From: Acidobacteriaceae bacterium
GTDB lineage: Bacteria > Acidobacteriota > Terriglobia > Terriglobales > Acidobacteriaceae
Assembly (NCBI GenBank): GCA_027306745.1
Contig: DAHUZD010000171.1
Coordinates: 1 to 10,313, forward strand
Length of the DNA stretch: 10,313 nt
Direction: 5' to 3'
Shown: piece after piece, positions 1,395 to 10,243 of the stretch
How positions within the stretch are numbered: the first letter of the stretch is position 1
How the letters are laid out: each line of letters opens with the position of its first letter
Notes under the pieces: model-generated
Seen by the model: only the letters and a program-made list of their open reading frames with translations
Told to the model about the DNA's origin: nothing
Database searches by the model: none
Program-made: the position numbers and the translations under genes

Positions 1395-1501
1395 GATGAT
1401 TCCATCGTATCGCAGACGCAGAGATGCTTTCTCGGTTGGCGCTGCGGGCCTGTGATGGGTGCTATCGCAATCGCTGTACGTGCCGTGCTAGTCTCGAATC
1501 G

Positions 1502-3154
1502 GTGGACGTTCCTTCGCAATTCGATTCTGTCGTTGTTGGTGCTGGAATTGCCGGGTTGCGCGCAGCCATTACCTTGGCGCAGGCGGGCAATGTGCTGGTC
1601 GTCACCAAAGAAGCCGCTTCAGAATCCAACACGCAATATGCACAAGGCGGCATCGCCGTCGCCATGGGCGGCGAGCAGGATGTCTCGCTGCATTTTCAAG
1701 ACACACTGGCTGCGGGAGACGGTCTGGTTTTTCCGCCAGCAGCGGAGCTTCTTGTGCGCGAAGGCCCACAGAGAGTGCAAGAGCTGCTGGAGTGGGGAAC
1801 TGAATTTGATCGCATGCAGGGCGAGTTGATGCTGACGCGTGAAGGCGCGCATAGCCAGCCACGCATTCTGCACGCTCACGGCGACGCCACAGGCCGCGAG
1901 ATTGGCCGCGCACTGCTGCATCACGCCGCCACACATGCAAACATTCATTTGCTGGAGTGGACGATTACGGCGGAGCTGATCGTCCAGGATGGCCGCGTGG
2001 CTGGCATTACGCTACTGGGCCGCGATGGCAAACGATTTTCTGTGACCGCACGAACGATTCTTTTGGCCAGCGGCGGGGCTGGGCAGGTTTATAGCGACAC
2101 CACCAATCCCAGCGTGGCTACCGGCGACGGCATTGCCATGGCGGCGCGCGCAGGCGCAGAGATTGCCGACATGGAGTTCTACCAGTTCCATCCCACAGCG
2201 TTGAGCCTGCCAGGAGTTCCGCGCTTTTTACTTTCAGAGGCGCTGCGGGGCGAAGGGGCCTGGCTGCGCAATCATCGCGGCGAGCGGTTTATGAGCCGCT
2301 ATCACGCGTTGGAAGAACTGGCTCCGCGCGATGTGGTGGCGCGCGCCATCGCGCAGGAAGGCATGGGAGGCAGTGCTGGAGAAATGCTGCCCGTCTATCT
2401 GGATATGCGGCATATTCAAGGGCTGGATTTGGCCGAGCGTTTTCCGGGCATCTCCGCATTTTTGCACCAGCATGGATTGGATTTGTCACGCGACTTGATC
2501 CCTGTGCGTCCCGCTGCACATTATTTAATGGGGGGCGTGCGCACAGATTTGGACGGAAGAACTTCTTTGCCCGGCCTGTACGCGGCTGGTGAGGTCGCAT
2601 GCACCGGCGTGCATGGCGCCAACCGTCTGGCCAGCAACTCTCTGCTGGAGGGGCTGGTATTTGGCGCGCGCGCAGGCGAGGCCATGCGTGCCGAACAAGC
2701 AAAAATGAGCGCATCGAAACTGCCTACGCGGATGCTTGCCGTTGATGACAGCGCGAAGGCTGCCGGTGCGCAAGCCGACTGTTTGCCGCTGCGCACTGCG
2801 ATTCGAGAAGGCATGTGGCGCAATGCTGGTTTGCTGCGGGATGCCGATGGTTTGAATCGCATGCTGAACATGCTGCAAGCGATGGATCCAAAACTTCCAC
2901 CTGCCAGCACACGTGAGAGCATCGAATTGCGCAATCTACACAGCGTTGCGAGCCTGATCGCCACAGCGGCGCTGGCCCGGCAGGAGTCGCGCGGGGCGCA
3001 TGCGCGCACAGATTTTCCTGCGAAGCACGCAGGGCAGCCGTTGCACTCGTGCATCCAGGCTGGACAGGTTCGCTTTGTCGCATTCGATTCAGCGGCGAAC
3101 GGAGTGCTTGCTGCTCGGTCCATGCAGCAGGGAAGCTCCAGCCGTTACCGCTAG
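1502..3154 (+). CDS. nadB: L-aspartate oxidase
   Basis: NadB oxidises L-aspartate to iminoaspartate with FAD; NadA then condenses this with dihydroxyacetone phosphate to quinolinate. Numbered from the GTG chosen here (550 aa; the E. coli protein is about 540), the protein has the FAD dinucleotide motif GAGIAG (13-18), the SNTQYAQGGIA segment (42-52), QFHPTAL with H230, SEALRGEGA (245-253), ELAPRDVVARA with R276 (equivalent to the E. coli catalytic arginine) and the C-terminal HGANRLASNSLLEGLVFG FAD segment. The frame stays open upstream to an ATG at 1424, but those 26 extra residues are Cys/Arg-rich, unlike the family, and would leave only 29 bases to divergent aroB, so I prefer 1502. No strong ribosome binding site precedes either start. 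The 3' end overlaps terC by 66 bases. No NAD riboswitch is visible here, unlike nadA. Confidence 0.95.
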   Translation: MDVPSQFDSVVVGAGIAGLRAAITLAQAGNVLVVTKEAASESNTQYAQGGIAVAMGGEQDVSLHFQDTLAAGDGLVFPPAAELLVREGPQRVQELLEWGTEFDRMQGELMLTREGAHSQPRILHAHGDATGREIGRALLHHAATHANIHLLEWTITAELIVQDGRVAGITLLGRDGKRFSVTARTILLASGGAGQVYSDTTNPSVATGDGIAMAARAGAEIADMEFYQFHPTALSLPGVPRFLLSEALRGEGAWLRNHRGERFMSRYHALEELAPRDVVARAIAQEGMGGSAGEMLPVYLDMRHIQGLDLAERFPGISAFLHQHGLDLSRDLIPVRPAAHYLMGGVRTDLDGRTSLPGLYAAGEVACTGVHGANRLASNSLLEGLVFGARAGEAMRAEQAKMSASKLPTRMLAVDDSAKAAGAQADCLPLRTAIREGMWRNAGLLRDADGLNRMLNMLQAMDPKLPPASTRESIELRNLHSVASLIATAALARQESRGAHARTDFPAKHAGQPLHSCIQAGQVRFVAFDSAANGVLAARSMQQGSSSRYR

Positions 3155-4079: not shown

Positions 4080-4093
4080 CTAAAATGCGAACA
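4078..4093 (+). promoter_or_regulatory. Extended -10 promoter for arsR-sulP, predicted leaderless
   Basis: TGC followed by TAAAAT (4081-4086) is a good extended -10 element, matching TATAAT at 5 of 6 positions. The predicted start, 7 bases beyond the -10, is A4093, the A of the arsR ATG. There is no ribosome binding site before that ATG, which fits a leaderless transcript. The hexamer at the -35 distance is CATATT, a poor -35 but the left arm of the putative operator. Confidence 0.5.
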
Positions 4094-4434
4094 TGCAAGA
4101 GTCTCTCCGACAATTCAAGGCAGATTTTTTTCAGGCTCTGGCGCATCCCACACGCATTGCCCTTGTGGAGCAGTTGCGGGACGGAGAACTCTCCGCGGGC
4201 ACACTGATCGGTCGGCTGGGGATTGAACAGGCGAATGCTTCGCAGCACCTTGCCGTGTTGCGCGCAAAGAATATCGTCGTGGGCCGCAAGGATGGCAATC
4301 AGGTTTTCTACAGCGTGCGAGACCCGCTCATCATCGATGTTCTAGATCTGATGCGCCGGTATTTTCATGCACACATGAACGAGGCCCTGGCCACGCTGAA
4401 GGCGCTGGGACGTGCGGAGAAGGTGCGCCGGTGA
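4093..4434 (+). CDS. ArsR/SmtB-family winged-helix repressor
   Basis: A 113-residue single-domain regulator, the usual size for the family. The pattern FFQALAHPTRIALVEQLRDGE (residues about 12-32) is the classic start of an HTH_5 domain. The recognition helix is in IEQANASQHLAVLRAKNIV, followed by the beta-wing GRKDGNQVFYSV. The protein has no cysteine at all, so it cannot use the thiol sites of ArsR, CadC or the sulfide sensors BigR/SqrR. The C-terminal helix has D, H and E residues (DPLIIDVLDLMRRYFHAHMNE), but the spacing does not match the SmtB alpha-5 zinc site, apart from an H-x2-E pair. It overlaps sulP by 4 bases (GTGA) and so is coupled to it; autoregulation of the pair through the repeat at 4058-4079 is likely. 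The signal is unknown. Confidence 0.93.
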   Translation: MQESLRQFKADFFQALAHPTRIALVEQLRDGELSAGTLIGRLGIEQANASQHLAVLRAKNIVVGRKDGNQVFYSVRDPLIIDVLDLMRRYFHAHMNEALATLKALGRAEKVRR

Positions 4435-6140
4435 AGCGCAACCTCCAATGGATGCCGGCTTCAGTACAGTGTCTGCGCCAATACACGCGTGCAGATTTTA
4501 GTGCGGATTTGCTGGCTGGCATTACCGTTGGCTCCGTAGCCTTGCCGCTGGCGATGGTCTTTGCCATAGCCGCCGGGCTGCCTCCGCAGTCGGGCCTCTA
4601 CACGGCGATCGTAGCCGGATTTTTGATTTCTGCCCTGGGCGGTTGCCGGATGCAGATTGGCGGACCGACAGGGGCATTCGTTGTCATCATCGCCAGCATT
4701 CTGGCCAAGTACGGCGTGTCCGGTCTGGCGCTGGTGACGTTGATGGCTGGCTGCATCCTGATCGTTATGGGTCTGACTGGGTTGGGGGCAGCGGTGCAAT
4801 ACATACCGCGTCCTGTGACGGTTGGCTTTACGAACGGCATTGCAATTTTGATTGCCTCCACACAGATCAAAGAGTTTTTTGGCCTGCGCATGGGAGTGAC
4901 GCCCAGTGCCTTTCTTGCGCGCATGGCCGCCATCGCGCACAGTTTGCCGACCATGACAATGCCAGCGCTGGCGCTATCTCTGGCAACTCTGGTCGTTTTG
5001 CTGTTACTTCCTCGTTGGACGCGACGCATCCCGAGCTCCATTGCTGCCATGGTTGTATGTACGGCGGTGGCTGCTGGGTTGCATTGGCCTGTGGAAACAA
5101 TTGGCTCCCGTTATGGAGGTATTCCATCTGGGCTGCCCCGGATCATTCTGCCTGCATTGCACGCGAGCCAGATTCTCCCCTTGTTGCCCGCAGCGATGAC
5201 CGTAGCTTTGCTGGCAGCAGTACAGAGTTTGCTCTCGGCCATGGTTGCAGACGGCCGAAGCGGAACCCGGCACAACTCCAACGTTGAGCTGGTGGCGCAG
5301 GGCATTGCCAACATCGCCTCGCCGTTGTTTGGAGGCATGCCGGCAACGGGCGCTGTGGCACGGACTGTAACGAACATTCGTGCTGGCGCCAAAAGTCCGG
5401 TAGCGGGCATCGTCCATGCTTTGACGCTATTGGTTCTACTGCTGGCGGCTGCCCCCTTGGCGCGTTTTGTGCCGTTGGCCACATTGGCAGCGGTGTTGAT
5501 GGTTGTTTGCTACAAAATGGGCGAGTGGCGGGATATCGCGGCCATCTGGCGCTTGTCCTGGGCAGACATTAGCGTCTGGGCTGCAACATTTCTGCTGACA
5601 GTGCTGGCGGATCTGACGGTTGCGGTGGAGGTGGGCATGGTGCTGGCGGCGCTGCTTTATATTCATCGCATAGCCGAGACCACAACCGTCTCCAGGGTGA
5701 CGGAGGAATACATCCGCGAAGGTCGCGCTCATGTTTTACAGGACAAGCCGGTACCGGAGCATGTGACCATCCTGCGCATTCACGGGCCATTTTTATTTGG
5801 CACGACGGACAAGCTGTTGGAAGCTACGGCGGACCTGAGCGGATTTGCGGCGATTGTGATCGTGCGGCTGCGCAATATGACGGCCATTGATGCGACGGGA
5901 ATGCATGCGTTGGAAAAGCTGGCGGAGCGGCTGAAGAATTCCGGACGGACACTGCTGCTGTGTGGAGCTTTAGATCAACCGGCGCACATGCTGGAACAAG
6001 CGGATTTTCTTGCGCATGTGGGCCGGGAAAATGTTTTGCCCAACATTGACACAGCACTGCGGCGCGCAGAAGAAATCCACGCCGAGTTCTGCGGAGTGGG
6101 CGGGGAACTCGCACAGCGCATTCGCAGCCGGTCGCTATGA
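4431..6140 (+). CDS. SulP/SLC26-family anion transporter with C-terminal STAS domain
   Basis: This 569-residue inner-membrane protein has the SulP core with many hydrophobic helices (about residues 25-420) and a cytoplasmic STAS domain (about 440-555). The family signature is clear: LAGITVGSVALPLAMVFAIA, then PPQSGLYTAI and GGPTGAFVVI. In the STAS domain, the loop DATG takes the place of the DSSG of anti-sigma antagonists. Family members carry sulfate, bicarbonate, dicarboxylates or other anions, usually with H+ or Na+. Nothing here fixes the substrate: there are no cysteine-biosynthesis genes and no carbonic anhydrase beside it. The GTG start at 4431 overlaps the arsR stop and has AAGG 8 bases upstream. 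It converges on the cyclase gene with 18 bases between. Confidence 0.93.
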   Translation: MKRNLQWMPASVQCLRQYTRADFSADLLAGITVGSVALPLAMVFAIAAGLPPQSGLYTAIVAGFLISALGGCRMQIGGPTGAFVVIIASILAKYGVSGLALVTLMAGCILIVMGLTGLGAAVQYIPRPVTVGFTNGIAILIASTQIKEFFGLRMGVTPSAFLARMAAIAHSLPTMTMPALALSLATLVVLLLLPRWTRRIPSSIAAMVVCTAVAAGLHWPVETIGSRYGGIPSGLPRIILPALHASQILPLLPAAMTVALLAAVQSLLSAMVADGRSGTRHNSNVELVAQGIANIASPLFGGMPATGAVARTVTNIRAGAKSPVAGIVHALTLLVLLLAAAPLARFVPLATLAAVLMVVCYKMGEWRDIAAIWRLSWADISVWAATFLLTVLADLTVAVEVGMVLAALLYIHRIAETTTVSRVTEEYIREGRAHVLQDKPVPEHVTILRIHGPFLFGTTDKLLEATADLSGFAAIVIVRLRNMTAIDATGMHALEKLAERLKNSGRTLLLCGALDQPAHMLEQADFLAHVGRENVLPNIDTALRRAEEIHAEFCGVGGELAQRIRSRSL

Positions 6141-7135: not shown

Positions 7136-7924
7136 TTATACATTGCGTTTGCGGCGTTCCGGGTGCACCATGTGCGCGACGCCAATGCTGATGAAGTAAA
7201 GCACCAGCATGGGCGCAGCAAAGACACACATGGTCAGCACATCCGGCGTGGGCGTGATGATGGCCGCAATGATGAAAATAATCAAAATAGCATAGCGAAT
7301 GTTCTTCAAAAGAAATTTTGAGTTGACTATGCCGAAAAGCGCGAGAAAAAAGACGAGTATCGGCAGCTCAAAGATCAATCCCAAGCCAAGAATCACCGTG
7401 AGAAATAGACTCTCATATTCTTCGATGGTCACCAGCGGTTTGAACTGTGCGCCAAAGCCGATCAAAAACTCCAACGCACCGGGAAAGACGAAGCGGTAGC
7501 CAAAATACGCACCGCCCAGAAAGAGGCCGACGGTGGCGAACATGAAGGGCACAACGTACCGGCGCTCGCGTTGATAGAGACCCGGTGCGATGAAAAGCCA
7601 AAGCTGATACAGCACGAATGGCGAGGCAAGAATCAGCCCGCCGAAAAGTGCGATCTTCAAATAAAAATTAAATGGGTCTACTGGATTCAAATAACCAAGG
7701 CGCGTGTCCATGTGATGCGCGGCCAACGCTTGCGTGATGGGTTCGATCATGAATGCGGCGATGCGCTCATGAAATCCATACGCAACAAAAAACGCGATGA
7801 CGACATATACAACCGAGTGCACCAGGCGTTTGCGCAGCTCTTCCAGATGTTCCAGCAGGCTCATGCCGGGCAGTTCTGCGCGTTCAACTACAGCGCTGCG
7901 GGCGCGTTCCAACATTTCAGGCAT
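7136..7924 (-). CDS. tatC: Sec-independent (twin-arginine) translocase subunit TatC
   Basis: TatC is the polytopic inner-membrane receptor for twin-arginine signal peptides, carrying folded proteins across the membrane with TatA/TatB. From the ATG at 7924 it has 262 residues (E. coli 258), with six hydrophobic segments. Conserved parts visible are LLEHLEELRKRL (23-34; E29 corresponds to E. coli E15, part of the signal-peptide site), FIAPGLYQRERR (111-122; E120 corresponds to E. coli E103), and TPTPD...P...LYF near the end. The frame is open further upstream to 8005, but that segment lies inside tatA and looks like a shadow. The chosen start overlaps the tatA end by 8 bases, with GGCGGA upstream; a second ATG at 7915 would give a one-base gap. 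It is the middle gene of tatA-tatC-cyclase. Confidence 0.96.
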   Translation of the reverse strand: MPEMLERARSAVVERAELPGMSLLEHLEELRKRLVHSVVYVVIAFFVAYGFHERIAAFMIEPITQALAAHHMDTRLGYLNPVDPFNFYLKIALFGGLILASPFVLYQLWLFIAPGLYQRERRYVVPFMFATVGLFLGGAYFGYRFVFPGALEFLIGFGAQFKPLVTIEEYESLFLTVILGLGLIFELPILVFFLALFGIVNSKFLLKNIRYAILIIFIIAAIITPTPDVLTMCVFAAPMLVLYFISIGVAHMVHPERRKRNV

Positions 7925-8282
7925 GGGGTTTTTCCGCCGTTTGTGCAAAGTGTGCTGGCAGTACTTCTTCCTGCGAAGCGCTGAGGGTATTGCGAGGCTC
8001 GGCACCGGCGGCTGGGTTCACTGTGAGCGGAGCGGGTTCTGTTGGTGCAGGCGCGTCCGTTTTTGGTGGCAGAATGGAGGGTTCTGCCGGTGCGGATGCC
8101 TCTTTGCGCTCACGTTGTTCTGCCTGGCGCAACTCTTCCTCAATCTGAAATTTGAATTCATTGCTGGCCCGGCGGAACTCGCCGACCAGCTTGCCCAATT
8201 GCCGCGCCATCTCCGGCAACTTCTTGGGGCCGAAGATGATGAGTGCGAGCGTGAAGATGAAAATACTGTCGGCCAAACTCAT
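7917..8282 (-). CDS. TatA/TatB-family translocase subunit
   Basis: A 121-residue protein with one N-terminal membrane helix (about 5-17), the FGPKKLPEMARQLG hinge and amphipathic helix (17-30), a charged helix to about residue 62, then a Pro/Ala-rich disordered tail. This is the TatA/TatB/Hcf106 architecture. Two details lean toward TatB: the GP at the hinge with KLPE following, and an acidic residue (D5) near the membrane entry where TatB has a glutamate and TatA a glutamine. The tail is also longer than in most TatA proteins. Many Acidobacteria annotate such proteins simply as TatA/E, so no subtype is asserted. It starts at ATG 8282 without a clear ribosome binding site and overlaps tatC by 8 bases. 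A second TatA-type subunit would presumably be encoded elsewhere. Confidence 0.9.
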   Translation of the reverse strand: MSLADSIFIFTLALIIFGPKKLPEMARQLGKLVGEFRRASNEFKFQIEEELRQAEQRERKEASAPAEPSILPPKTDAPAPTEPAPLTVNPAAGAEPRNTLSASQEEVLPAHFAQTAEKPHA

Positions 8283-8290
8283 GCATCTTC

Positions 8291-8319
8291 ATCATACGCA
8301 GCCGCGAATCCGCAAACAA
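8291..8319 (-). promoter_or_regulatory. Sigma-70-type promoter for tatA-tatC-cyclase
   Basis: On the minus strand TTGTTT (8319-8314) and TATGAT (8296-8291) are separated by exactly 17 bases. The -10 matches consensus at 5 of 6 positions; the -35 matches only in its TTG. The predicted start is near 8284, leaving at most a couple of bases before the ATG at 8282, so the message would be essentially leaderless, which fits the missing ribosome binding site. Confidence 0.4.
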
Positions 8320-8420
8320 ACGCAGGCCTGGCTTTGGGCCGTTACGTTGCTGTTGGGGCATTTCTGCTCTTGCATGAGCAGCGCGTGCCGATGATCTCAG
8401 TGGAAGGTTTGTTGCTTCCG

Positions 8421-8429
8421 TATTAAAAT
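8421..8429 (+). promoter_or_regulatory. Candidate -10 region for nadA
   Basis: TATTAAAAT is the only AT-rich run in the nadA upstream region. Using TAAAAT (8424-8429) as the -10, transcription would start near 8436, about 45 bases before the riboswitch and 200 before the nadA ATG. No good -35 is seen 16-18 bases upstream, so this rests on composition and position alone. Confidence 0.3.
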
Positions 8430-8445
8430 CAAATGAAGAGTTGGA

Positions 8446-8480
8446 GTTCCCGACAGACGCAAGAGTCGCCGGGAAGGAAC
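8446..8480 (+). other. Leader hairpin 5' of the riboswitch
   Basis: TTCCCG (8447-8452) can pair with CGGGAA (8470-8475), with GAC/GTC complementarity (8452-8454 with 8465-8467) offering an alternative inner register. GTTCC (8446-8450) can instead pair with GGAAC (8476-8480). This structure is not part of the riboswitch core that I can recognise. No U-run follows it, so it is not a standard terminator. Confidence 0.3.
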
Positions 8481-8550
8481 GTTGCAACAACCCCGTGGTT
8501 TGGGCGCATCCGGCATGAAGTGGCCGGAGACGCAGCGAAGCCACTGCAAC
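8481..8550 (+). promoter_or_regulatory. NAD+-I riboswitch domain 1 (ligand-binding aptamer)
   Basis: P1 is GUUGCA (8481-8486) with UGCAAC (8545-8550), 6 perfect pairs. The core ACAACCCC is 8487-8494. Lower P2 is GUGGUUU (8495-8501) with GAAGCCAC (8538-8544 used), 7 pairs including one G-U. An internal loop follows (GG 8502-8503 against AGCG 8534-8537), then GCG (8504-8506) with CGC (8531-8533), then the apical stem UCCGGC (8509-8514) with GCCGGA (8523-8528) closing an 8-base loop. The bulged GCAGCGAAGC segment (8532-8541) is typical of the better-studied first domain. Confidence 0.88.
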
Positions 8551-8565
8551 TGGAATTGAACCGTT

Positions 8566-8630
8566 GCTTTCAACATCCCCGTTTTGCGTGGACGCTTCCC
8601 CCAAGGAGCGGCTGCGGCAGAACTGAAGGC
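8566..8630 (+). promoter_or_regulatory. NAD+-I riboswitch domain 2 with expression platform
   Basis: P1 is GCUUUCA (8566-8572) with UGAAGGC (8624-8630), 7 pairs with one G-U. The core ACAUCCCC is 8573-8580. Lower P2 is GUUUUGC (8581-8587) with GCAGAAC (8617-8623), 7 pairs with one U-G. The upper hairpin is CGCUUC (8593-8598) with GGAGCG (8605-8610), closing a 6-base loop. The internal loop differs from domain 1 (GUGGA against GCUGCG). The 3' strand of P1 covers AAGG at 8626-8629, the upstream half of the nadA ribosome binding region, so P1 formation would reduce initiation. Confidence 0.85.
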
Positions 8631-8634
8631 GGAG
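8626..8634 (+). promoter_or_regulatory. nadA ribosome binding site, partly within riboswitch P1
   Basis: AAGGCGGAG offers two overlapping sites: AAGG (8626-8629), 9 bases before the ATG, and GGAG (8631-8634), only 4 bases before it. The better spaced one is paired in P1 of riboswitch domain 2; the other touches the base of that stem. Confidence 0.65.
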
Positions 8635-8638
8635 AACC

Positions 8639-9781
8639 ATGACGACTGTTCTTGAAGCAGAGCTGCCGACGCAGGCGGCTACGCAGTGCACCCTCGACAA
8701 TTATTTGGAACTGCCCGATGCCAGTATGGACGGCCGCATCGCAGCGGCGCGCGCAAAGTTGGGCAAGCAGGCCATTATTCTGGGCCACCACTACCAGCGC
8801 GATGAGGTCATCCGCTTTGCCGACGCCACGGGCGACAGCTACAAACTGTCCAAAATCGCATCGCAGGCGGTAGGAAAGTACATCCTATTTTGCGGCGTGC
8901 ATTTTATGGCGGAGAGCGCAGACATTTTGGCGCAGCCGCACCAACAGGTAATTCTGCCCGACCTCAATGCCGGATGCTCCATGGCCGACATGGCCGACAT
9001 ATCCCAGGTGGAAGCATGCTGGGACAGCCTGACCGCTGCCGGCTTGACCGGTGCTGAAGCGGGCGGGTTGATTCCGCTGACGTATATGAATTCGACAGCA
9101 GCGATCAAGGCCTTTTGCGGCGAGCGTGGCGGACTGGTCTGTACCTCGTCTAATGCCGCGGCGGCGTTTCGCTGGGCCTTCGCGCGCGGTCAAAGGATTT
9201 TGTTTTTGCCCGATCAGCATTTGGGACGCAACACAGCGCACGCCTTGGGCCTGGCTCCGCAGGAGATGGTGGTCTGGGATCCGTATCAGCTTCAAGGCGG
9301 ACTAACGCCGGAGCGTCTGCGTGCCGCGCGCGTGATTTTGTGGAAAGGGCATTGCTCCGTGCACCAGCGCTTTTTGCCAGAGCATGTGGATCTCGTCCGT
9401 GCCAAGATTCCCGGCGTTCAGGTGGTGGTGCACCCAGAATGCCGCTTGGAGGTTTGCCAGAAGGCCGACGTGATTGGTTCGACGGAGCGGATTATTCGGA
9501 CGATCGAAGAGGCTCCAACTGGAACCAGCTTTGCCGTGGGGACGGAGATACATTTGGTGAACCGGCTGGGCAAACGCTTTGCTCCGCTGGGCAAACACGT
9601 CATCACGCTGGATGATGCTGGCTGCCTGTGCACGACCATGTTCCGCATCTCGCCGCAGCATCTGGCCTGGGCGTTGGAGAATCTGGTTGAGGGCACGGTG
9701 GTAAATCGTATTCGCGTCAGTGACGACGTGAAGCACTGGGCGCGCGTGGCACTGGATCGGATGCTGGAAATTCGTGGATAA
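8639..9781 (+). CDS. nadA: Quinolinate synthase A
   Basis: NadA is a cytoplasmic 4Fe-4S enzyme that condenses iminoaspartate (from NadB) with dihydroxyacetone phosphate to give quinolinate, the committed precursor of NAD. The 380 residues fit the longer form of the family. Seen motifs: ILGHHYQRDEV (47-57), FADATGDSYKLS (60-71), FCGVHFMAESADIL (84-97), AGCSMADMA (111-119), WKGHCSVHQRF (235-245), HPECRLEVC (265-273) and DAGCLCTTM (327-334). The three cluster ligands are probably C113, C239 and C329 or C331; H265 and E267 belong to the substrate pocket. The ATG at 8639 is chosen for the ribosome binding region just before it. Expression is under the NAD+-I riboswitch. DUF2203 follows after 27 bases, probably on the same message. 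Confidence 0.97.
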   Translation: MTTVLEAELPTQAATQCTLDNYLELPDASMDGRIAAARAKLGKQAIILGHHYQRDEVIRFADATGDSYKLSKIASQAVGKYILFCGVHFMAESADILAQPHQQVILPDLNAGCSMADMADISQVEACWDSLTAAGLTGAEAGGLIPLTYMNSTAAIKAFCGERGGLVCTSSNAAAAFRWAFARGQRILFLPDQHLGRNTAHALGLAPQEMVVWDPYQLQGGLTPERLRAARVILWKGHCSVHQRFLPEHVDLVRAKIPGVQVVVHPECRLEVCQKADVIGSTERIIRTIEEAPTGTSFAVGTEIHLVNRLGKRFAPLGKHVITLDDAGCLCTTMFRISPQHLAWALENLVEGTVVNRIRVSDDVKHWARVALDRMLEIRG

Positions 9782-9808: not shown

Positions 9809-10243
9809 ATGAAAACCTTTTCACTCGACGAGGCGCAGACGTTGATTCCCGTGTTGGAGTCACTCATGAAGCGGGCCATGCAGGCGCGTGAAACCGCCGA
9901 GGGGGTTGAAGAGGATTTGCAGAGCTTGACGCAGCGCATTTTTTTGCACGGCGGAATGTTGGTGCCGATTGCGCAGGTGGCCCGCCGCCGCGCCGAGCGC
10001 GAGGTGGCCGTGCAACAGGTCAAGGACACTCTGCAGGAACTTGACGCCATCGGCGTACAGGTGAAAGACATCGAAAAGGGCCTGCTCGATTTTCCCTGCC
10101 GCCTCGGCGAGGAAACGGTTCTGCTGTGTTGGAAGATGGGTGAGTCGGAAATTCAATACTGGCACACGCTGGAGTCCGGCTTCAGTGGCCGCCAACCCAT
10201 CGATGAGCGCTTCCGCCGCGGACAAAAACAACGCCCCAATTGA
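9809..10243 (+). CDS. DUF2203 family protein, function unknown
   Basis: A 144-residue soluble protein. It begins with FSLDEAQTLIPVLESLM (4-20), the normal opening of DUF2203, and continues with long charged helices likely to form a coiled coil (about 20-90). The conserved C-terminal block is VQVKDIEKGLLDFPC, then VLLCWKMGESEIQYWHTLESGFSGRQPID (about 83-131). The strongly conserved K-D-E-G-DFP and C-W-GE-YWH residues suggest a binding or active site, but the family has no established function that I know of. GGAG at 9797-9800, 8 bases before the ATG, is a good ribosome binding site. It lies 27 bases after nadA with no terminator between, so it is probably under the same riboswitch-controlled transcript, though translational control at nadA need not extend to it. 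Confidence 0.88.
   Translation: MKTFSLDEAQTLIPVLESLMKRAMQARETAEGVEEDLQSLTQRIFLHGGMLVPIAQVARRRAEREVAVQQVKDTLQELDAIGVQVKDIEKGLLDFPCRLGEETVLLCWKMGESEIQYWHTLESGFSGRQPIDERFRRGQKQRPN

Follow-up and report, generated by a model that had tools for sequence, protein, structure and literature searches.

The NAD+-I riboswitch (nadA motif, RF03013) has been published as an OFF switch, in which ligand-bound domain 1 aids the folding of domain 2 and the helix P1′ of the latter masks the ribosome-binding site (PMC10702441). An OFF-switch model with the ribosome-binding site in P1′ also appears in PMC7708056 and PMC7297122, and PMC9481103 already reports that the two aptamers consistently occur as a pair. 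Among the individual members of the class, the nadA riboswitch of Acidobacteriaceae bacterium KBS 83 (locus L262 of this study, with L054 at the same place) is the source of the published domain 2 structure. A ubiB variant of the nadA motif has also been described; it consists of two domains with a similar domain 1, its domain 2 being an uninterrupted stem (PMC7297122). Outside this class, the tandem glycine riboswitch likewise combines two similar aptamers, the second of which is joined to the expression platform (PMC10702441). The NAD+-II riboswitch (pnuC motif) is reported as a second class for NAD+; unlike NAD+-I, it senses the nicotinamide riboside part of the molecule and not the adenosyl part, and it is associated with pnuC (PMC10702441).

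Identification of a Tandem NAD+-I Riboswitch Upstream of nadA

The window, that is, the whole stretch of 10,313 nucleotides of acidobacterial DNA analysed here, carries a nadA gene for which the initial annotation had proposed a tandem NAD+-I riboswitch as the leader. Two P1-ACANCCCC-P1a hairpins were found at the place that it had indicated (8480-8551 and 8566-8630), and the 3′ strands of P1 and of the inner helix adjoin in both copies, as it had described (AAGCCAC followed by TGCAACT in domain 1, and GCAGAAC followed by TGAAGGC in domain 2). The tandem also lies directly 5′ of nadA, with 8 nt between domain 2 and the ATG at 8639. The assignment to the NAD+-I/nadA motif class was borne out by the covariance-model search that the annotation had named as its check, the lack of any match being the outcome that would have spoken against it: with a gathering score of 37.5 bits, RF03013 (nadA riboswitch) matched both domains above the cut-off, domain 1 at 52.0 bits (E 4.4e-10) and domain 2 at 53.0 bits (E 2.2e-10), each over positions 1-62 of the 62 in the model. 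These were the only RF03013 matches in the whole assembly from which the window comes (1.94 Mb, 435 contigs, 71.6% complete). The 9-base core ACANCCCCG taken alone gave two matches against 0.30 expected; because two or more were also reached in 5 of 200 shuffles, the core by itself is weak evidence, and it is the covariance-model matches that settle the identity of the element. A match to the L25-Gammaproteobacteria leader at 3107-3131, below its cut-off and within a nadB-like reading frame, was judged to be due to chance.

Table 1. Predicted parts of the riboswitch and the genes downstream of it, in positions of the window.
Feature	Position	Strand	Basis
NAD+-I riboswitch domain 1 (predicted ligand-binding aptamer)	8480..8551	+	RF03013
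P1 5′ strand CGUUGCA, partner 8545-8551; outermost C-U unpaired	8480..8486	+	
J1 bulge ACAACCCC, published positions A8-C15; assigned to ADP pocket, with C13/C14 for J1-J2 contact	8487..8494	+	sequence; role from PMC7708056
P1a of domain 1	8495-8501/8538-8544	+	
J2 5′ side GG (G23, G24)	8502..8503	+	sequence
J2 3′ side AGCG (A35 G36 C37 G38), domain 1 signature complete	8534..8537	+	
P1 3′ strand UGCAACU	8545..8551	+	
Interdomain linker, 14 nt	8552..8565	+	
NAD+-I riboswitch domain 2 (predicted expression platform)	8566..8630	+	RF03013
P1′ 5′ strand GCUUUCA = anti-Shine-Dalgarno strand	8566..8572	+	
J1′ bulge ACATCCCC / ACAUCCCC	8573..8580	+	
P1a′ of domain 2	8581-8587/8617-8623	+	
J2′ 3′ side UGCG	8613..8616	+	
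P1′ 3′ strand UGAAGGC	8624..8630	+	
Shine-Dalgarno-like AAGGCGG, 6 nt 5′ of ATG, 5/7 bases within P1′	8626..8632	+	
nadA, quinolinate synthase, 380 aa, putative regulated gene	8639..9781	+	Pfam NadA E 6.4e-96
DUF2203 gene, 27 bp 3′ of nadA	9809..10243	+	

By every sequence feature testable here, the leader before nadA is a genuine two-domain NAD+-I riboswitch and, within a class described earlier from Acidobacteria, an ordinary new member. Besides its score above the cut-off, it shares with RF03013 both domains as tandem stem-loops bulged by ACANCCCC, the GG/AGYG of J2 in domain 1, the short linker, the ribosome-binding site within P1′, the nadA gene downstream and the acidobacterial host; no defining difference was found, domain 2 of the window standing at the upper end of J2 similarity. 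The known regulatory class is thereby confirmed in another acidobacterial genome, where nadA is under probable feedback control. The Shine-Dalgarno-like AAGGCGG (Table 1) pairs with a generic anti-Shine-Dalgarno sequence, which may differ from the organism's own 16S end.

In the published structure of the aptamer, the pocket is formed by C6-G47, A7-U46, A8 and A10, as derived from crystal and binding work, and tight binding depends on C13-G38, C14-G36, G23-C37 and G24-A35 (PMC7708056). Domain 1 of the window has every one of them, and the GG/AGCG of its J2 is, by its letters alone, able to pair with J1. Domain 2 has four of the six J2 positions, keeping G23, G36, C37 and G38 and lacking G24 and A35, and in the energy model its J2′ is zipped into U-G/G-U wobbles that leave a single bulged G. 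The riboswitch of KBS 83 has the same architecture, with a domain 2 of 55.0 bits that keeps G23 and the GYG of J2′; it differs from that of the window in its loops and linker, and its NadA is 73% identical. The bulged domain 2 sets the window apart from the uninterrupted stem of the ubiB variant, and the tandem glycine riboswitch differs in its unrelated sequence and in that each of its aptamers binds ligand (PMC10702441).

Distribution of the Riboswitch and Its Association with NadA

The initial annotation had described the class as confined to Acidobacteria, which fits the genomes examined: all 36 genomes above the cut-off in the phylum survey (of 396) belong to the window's own family, each with exactly two matches, and two further genomes gave single matches below it. 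In the class survey, 85 of 399 genomes were above the cut-off, again all in the family by their listing. The family survey placed 238 of 398 genomes above the cut-off and 240 with a match at E up to 0.001, the latter from 59 of the 79 genera; two matches per genome were present in 230 of these, one in nine, and four, on two contigs, in one. RF03013 matched none of 14 control genomes and none of 36 genomes reached via more distant NadA relatives, a search set without any positive, 23 members of which lie outside Acidobacteria.

The surveys yielded 257 loci from 242 genomes (240 of the family and two outside it), the window and 13 others being represented twice. Both domains are present in 254 of them, among which are the loci from eight of the nine genomes with a single match. 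The three loci without a tandem (L255 in the family, L256 and L257 outside it) are sub-cut-off matches that lack the GCTTTCAACA anchor and were judged to be due to chance; two further weak matches outside the family were obtained in genomes G776 and G860. The 254 tandem loci reduce to 240 distinct tandems, and NadA is encoded downstream on the same strand in 236. Of the four misses, three (L070, L177 and L189) are loci whose sequence stops within about 150 nt; in the fourth (L225), nadA is degraded. A strict parser, which required clear helices and at most one bulge mismatch, kept 223 loci corresponding to 209 distinct tandems, leaving 31 of the 240 out of the 209-tandem counts given below; 204 distinct tandems from an earlier parser pass were used for the calculation of coupling.

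The three closest named NadA relatives among the matches listed, from a Granulicella and two Acidobacteriaceae, are 75-77% identical to that of the window. The matches listed comprise 80 named NadA loci out of 591. Among the matches listed, nine loci have a NadA of at least 69% identity (L258-L265 and L280), and all of them carry at least one RF03013 match before nadA. In the same scan, eleven loci with a NadA of 60-63% identity had no RF03013 match, nor had twenty further NadA loci that were scanned; for 14 of the remaining 40, the whole genomes were among the 36 mentioned above, likewise with no match. This pattern of identities suggests that the riboswitch may accompany a single lineage of NadA. 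At four loci of other lineages (L267, L269, L270 and L271), matches to the Molybdenum cofactor riboswitch were observed about 1.2-1.5 kb before the nadA relatives.

Twenty hit-free family genomes, selected from the phylum and family surveys (the latter alone containing 158 without a match), were searched with the NadA of the window. Twelve had no NadA match, and six encode a NadA that is only 52-55% identical and around which, over about 4 kb, no Rfam model matched at gathering score. One genome (G210) showed a short weak NadA match only, and in another (G461), the only other genome of the window's genus that was searched, the nadA match (92% identity over residues 216-380) stops a single base short of the edge of a 3,749-base contig, so the leader was simply not assembled. 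On these 20 genomes, both the loss of the riboswitch with nadA kept and its absence from the window's genus were rejected.

Conservation of the Two Domains

The 209 distinct parsed tandems are related sequences and not independent events. Within this set, the complete J2 signature (GG plus AGYG) is present in 169 copies of domain 1 and in none of domain 2, and at least five of the six positions are kept by domain 1 in 189 tandems and by domain 2 again in none. The maximum in domain 2 is four positions, reached in 40 tandems including the window. As the other 20 copies of domain 1 keep four positions or fewer, domain 1 itself does not always carry the signature. These counts feed into the published dispute over whether one or two NAD+ are bound per riboswitch. 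The P1 helix of domain 1 varies with compensating changes, and at 11 of the 14 positions in the domain 1 helices pairing was higher than in any of 200 shuffles; of the other three, two are invariant and one equals the shuffle maximum. This covariation count leans towards structure, because the parser picked the 3′ strands by how they pair and because the sequences share ancestry.

Little variation is seen in J1′ and P1′. All 209 tandems have GCUUUCA as the 5′ strand of P1′ and 185 have UGAAGGC as its 3′ strand, and the J1′ bulge, in which the parser admitted at most one mismatch, is exactly ACANCCCC in 194. The other 15 bulges have C13 changed, to U in eight and to A in seven, and the full J2 of domain 1 is kept in 14 of these 15 tandems. 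Since an engineered C13A in the domain 2 bulge reduces regulation (PMC10702441), these natural C13A and C13U variants of domain 2 offer ready test cases. They were observed at L064, L079, L085, L087, L088, L136, L139, L155, L175, L179, L195, L215, L252, L253 and L254.

The linker is at most 14 nt long in 198 of the 209 tandems, with a median of 8. In five of nine tandems inspected, a biased pick of those missed by the strict parser, the arm of domain 2 measures only 14-16 nt and has no internal loop. Family members in which this arm is reduced to a simple short hairpin include L126 and L151. The absence of the internal loop from domain 2 was already noted from the consensus in PMC7297122, so the survey extends a known point and makes no discovery here. 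The domain 2 of the window was also considered as an unusual, domain-1-like sensor, a reading prompted by its 53 bits, above any second copy in the phylum survey; this was ruled out by the still higher score of KBS 83 domain 2 (55.0 bits), by the missing G24 and A35 and by the predicted wobble helix.

Proposed Mechanism of nadA Regulation

The tandem very probably represses the translation of nadA as an NAD+-I (nadA motif) riboswitch, with domain 1 binding the ligand and domain 2 serving as a clamp. According to the mechanism in the literature, domain 1 would bind one ADP-bearing ligand, physiologically NAD+, and the bound domain would help domain 2 to fold via tertiary contacts; P1′ would then hold the Shine-Dalgarno sequence, and the production of NadA would drop when the cofactor is plentiful. 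No intrinsic terminator was found in 8283-8700, which favours translational control. Because domain 2 lacks a complete version of the J2 loop on which tight binding depends, its role is most likely that of a clamp and not of a second sensor on a par with domain 1; the contrast in J2 between the domains (169 of 209 against 0 of 209) fits the one-ligand model and weakens the case for domain 2 as a second equal NAD+ sensor.

The name of the ligand is less secure than the class, since a full-length relative has been shown to bind ADP and ATP no less well than NAD+ (PMC10702441). The KDs reported for a full-length relative (NAD+ 31.5 uM, ATP 11 uM) are lower than the cell concentrations quoted (PMC10702441) and do not account for specificity or switching range. 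It is nevertheless unlikely that the element senses ADP/ATP or energy charge in place of NAD+: a gene of NAD+ synthesis, nadA, follows 236 of the 240 distinct tandems, the other four being three short stretches and one degraded nadA, and this points to NAD+ as the ligand.

Another proposal, put forward in PMC7708056, is a sensor of two concentrations in which both domains bind NAD+, domain 1 tightly and domain 2 at millimolar levels only, and domain 2 is switched to OFF by a ligand of its own. The sequence of the window agrees with what this proposal and the OFF-switch mechanism above have in common. The two-concentration sensor would account for the high conservation of J1′ (194 of 209 being ACANCCCC), for the NAD+ bound in the crystal structure of KBS 83 domain 2 (PMC7708056) and for the 53 bits and the kept G23, G36, C37 and G38 of domain 2 in the window. 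It is quite unlikely, however, as calorimetry of a full-length relative indicated one ligand and isolated domain 2 had no detectable binding (PMC10702441). The J2 determinants of tight binding, which a two-site sensor would keep in domain 2, are moreover complete in none of the 209 tandems and reach four of six in the window, where the energy model zips J2′ into the wobble helix, and some domain 2 arms of the family are only 14-16 nt long with no internal loop.

Returning to domain 2 as a clamp, a possible though tentative picture for the whole family is that it no longer senses ligand, keeping just the bulge and an invariant anti-Shine-Dalgarno helix, with a distal arm that can shrink to a simple short hairpin, and that it is closed by tertiary docking on ligand-bound domain 1 via J1′/P1′. 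The contacts tentatively put forward in the docking model are J1-1a and J1b-1a (PMC10702441). As J2′ (J1b-1a′) is unconserved and sometimes absent, docking would in general have to rely not on it but on the J1′ bulge or on P1′; a J1b-1a contact on the domain 2 side is thus unlikely to be general.

In the predicted folding of the window, domain 1 alone was unusually stable (z -3.39; stability reached by none of 200 shuffles), and domain 2 alone had a z of -2.21 (reached by 6 of 200); the leader as a whole (8440-8660) showed no unusual stability (z -1.26; 23 of 200 shuffles). When 40 or 60 nt of preceding sequence are included, P1 and P1′ are both disrupted in the lowest-energy fold of the window. 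Coupling from domain 1 to domain 2, calculated from partition functions with 5 nt upstream, had a median of 0.00 kcal/mol over the 204 distinct tandems, four of which were below -1 kcal/mol and none above +1. P1′ nearly forms by itself in the energy model, at a median cost of 0.21 kcal/mol in the same tandems, and with such coupling the switch is invisible at the level of secondary structure. A linker hairpin competing with P1 of domain 1, as in the minimum-energy fold of the window, was rejected as a general feature on the same median coupling. Very improbable is a switch of secondary structure in which, without ligand, the linker captures the P1 3′ strand and upstream sequence captures the 5′ strand of P1′, so that the Shine-Dalgarno sequence is free until ligand reverses the arrangement: it matches the minimum-free-energy fold of 8440-8660, where GCAAC pairs with the linker GUUGC, and the coupling of -1.52 kcal/mol in the window with 40 nt upstream, but that coupling is -0.29 kcal/mol with 5 nt and -0.66 kcal/mol with 60 nt, few tandems show any like it, and no sigma-70-like promoter was found in 8283-8700. 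Since secondary structure barely couples the domains in these models, the link between them is probably tertiary, as the docking model assumes.

Gene Context

The DUF2203 gene downstream of nadA (Table 1) is possibly co-transcribed with it. At L225 (genome G568), the tandem precedes a short N-terminal remnant that resembles NadA and contains stops, behind which comes a frame that by eye looks like DUF2203, so that nadA looks degraded there while the riboswitch and the downstream gene remain; the similar order hints at a conserved nadA-DUF2203 pair. A nadB-like gene (1424-3154; FAD_binding_2, likely an L-aspartate oxidase) lies on the same contig, apart from nadA, and the window search gave no RF03013 match at it. 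The tatA and tatC genes (7136-8282, minus strand) are divergent from nadA, and a TatA-like start was seen by eye upstream of the riboswitch in L022, so this divergent arrangement may be conserved. Further away, at 4093-6140, a gene for an ArsR-type regulator overlaps the start of that for a SulP-type sulfate permease by 4 bp, likely forming a two-gene operon. Upstream of domain 1, 22 of 239 loci contain the motif TATTAAA, compared with an expectation of 0.85 under mononucleotide shuffling.
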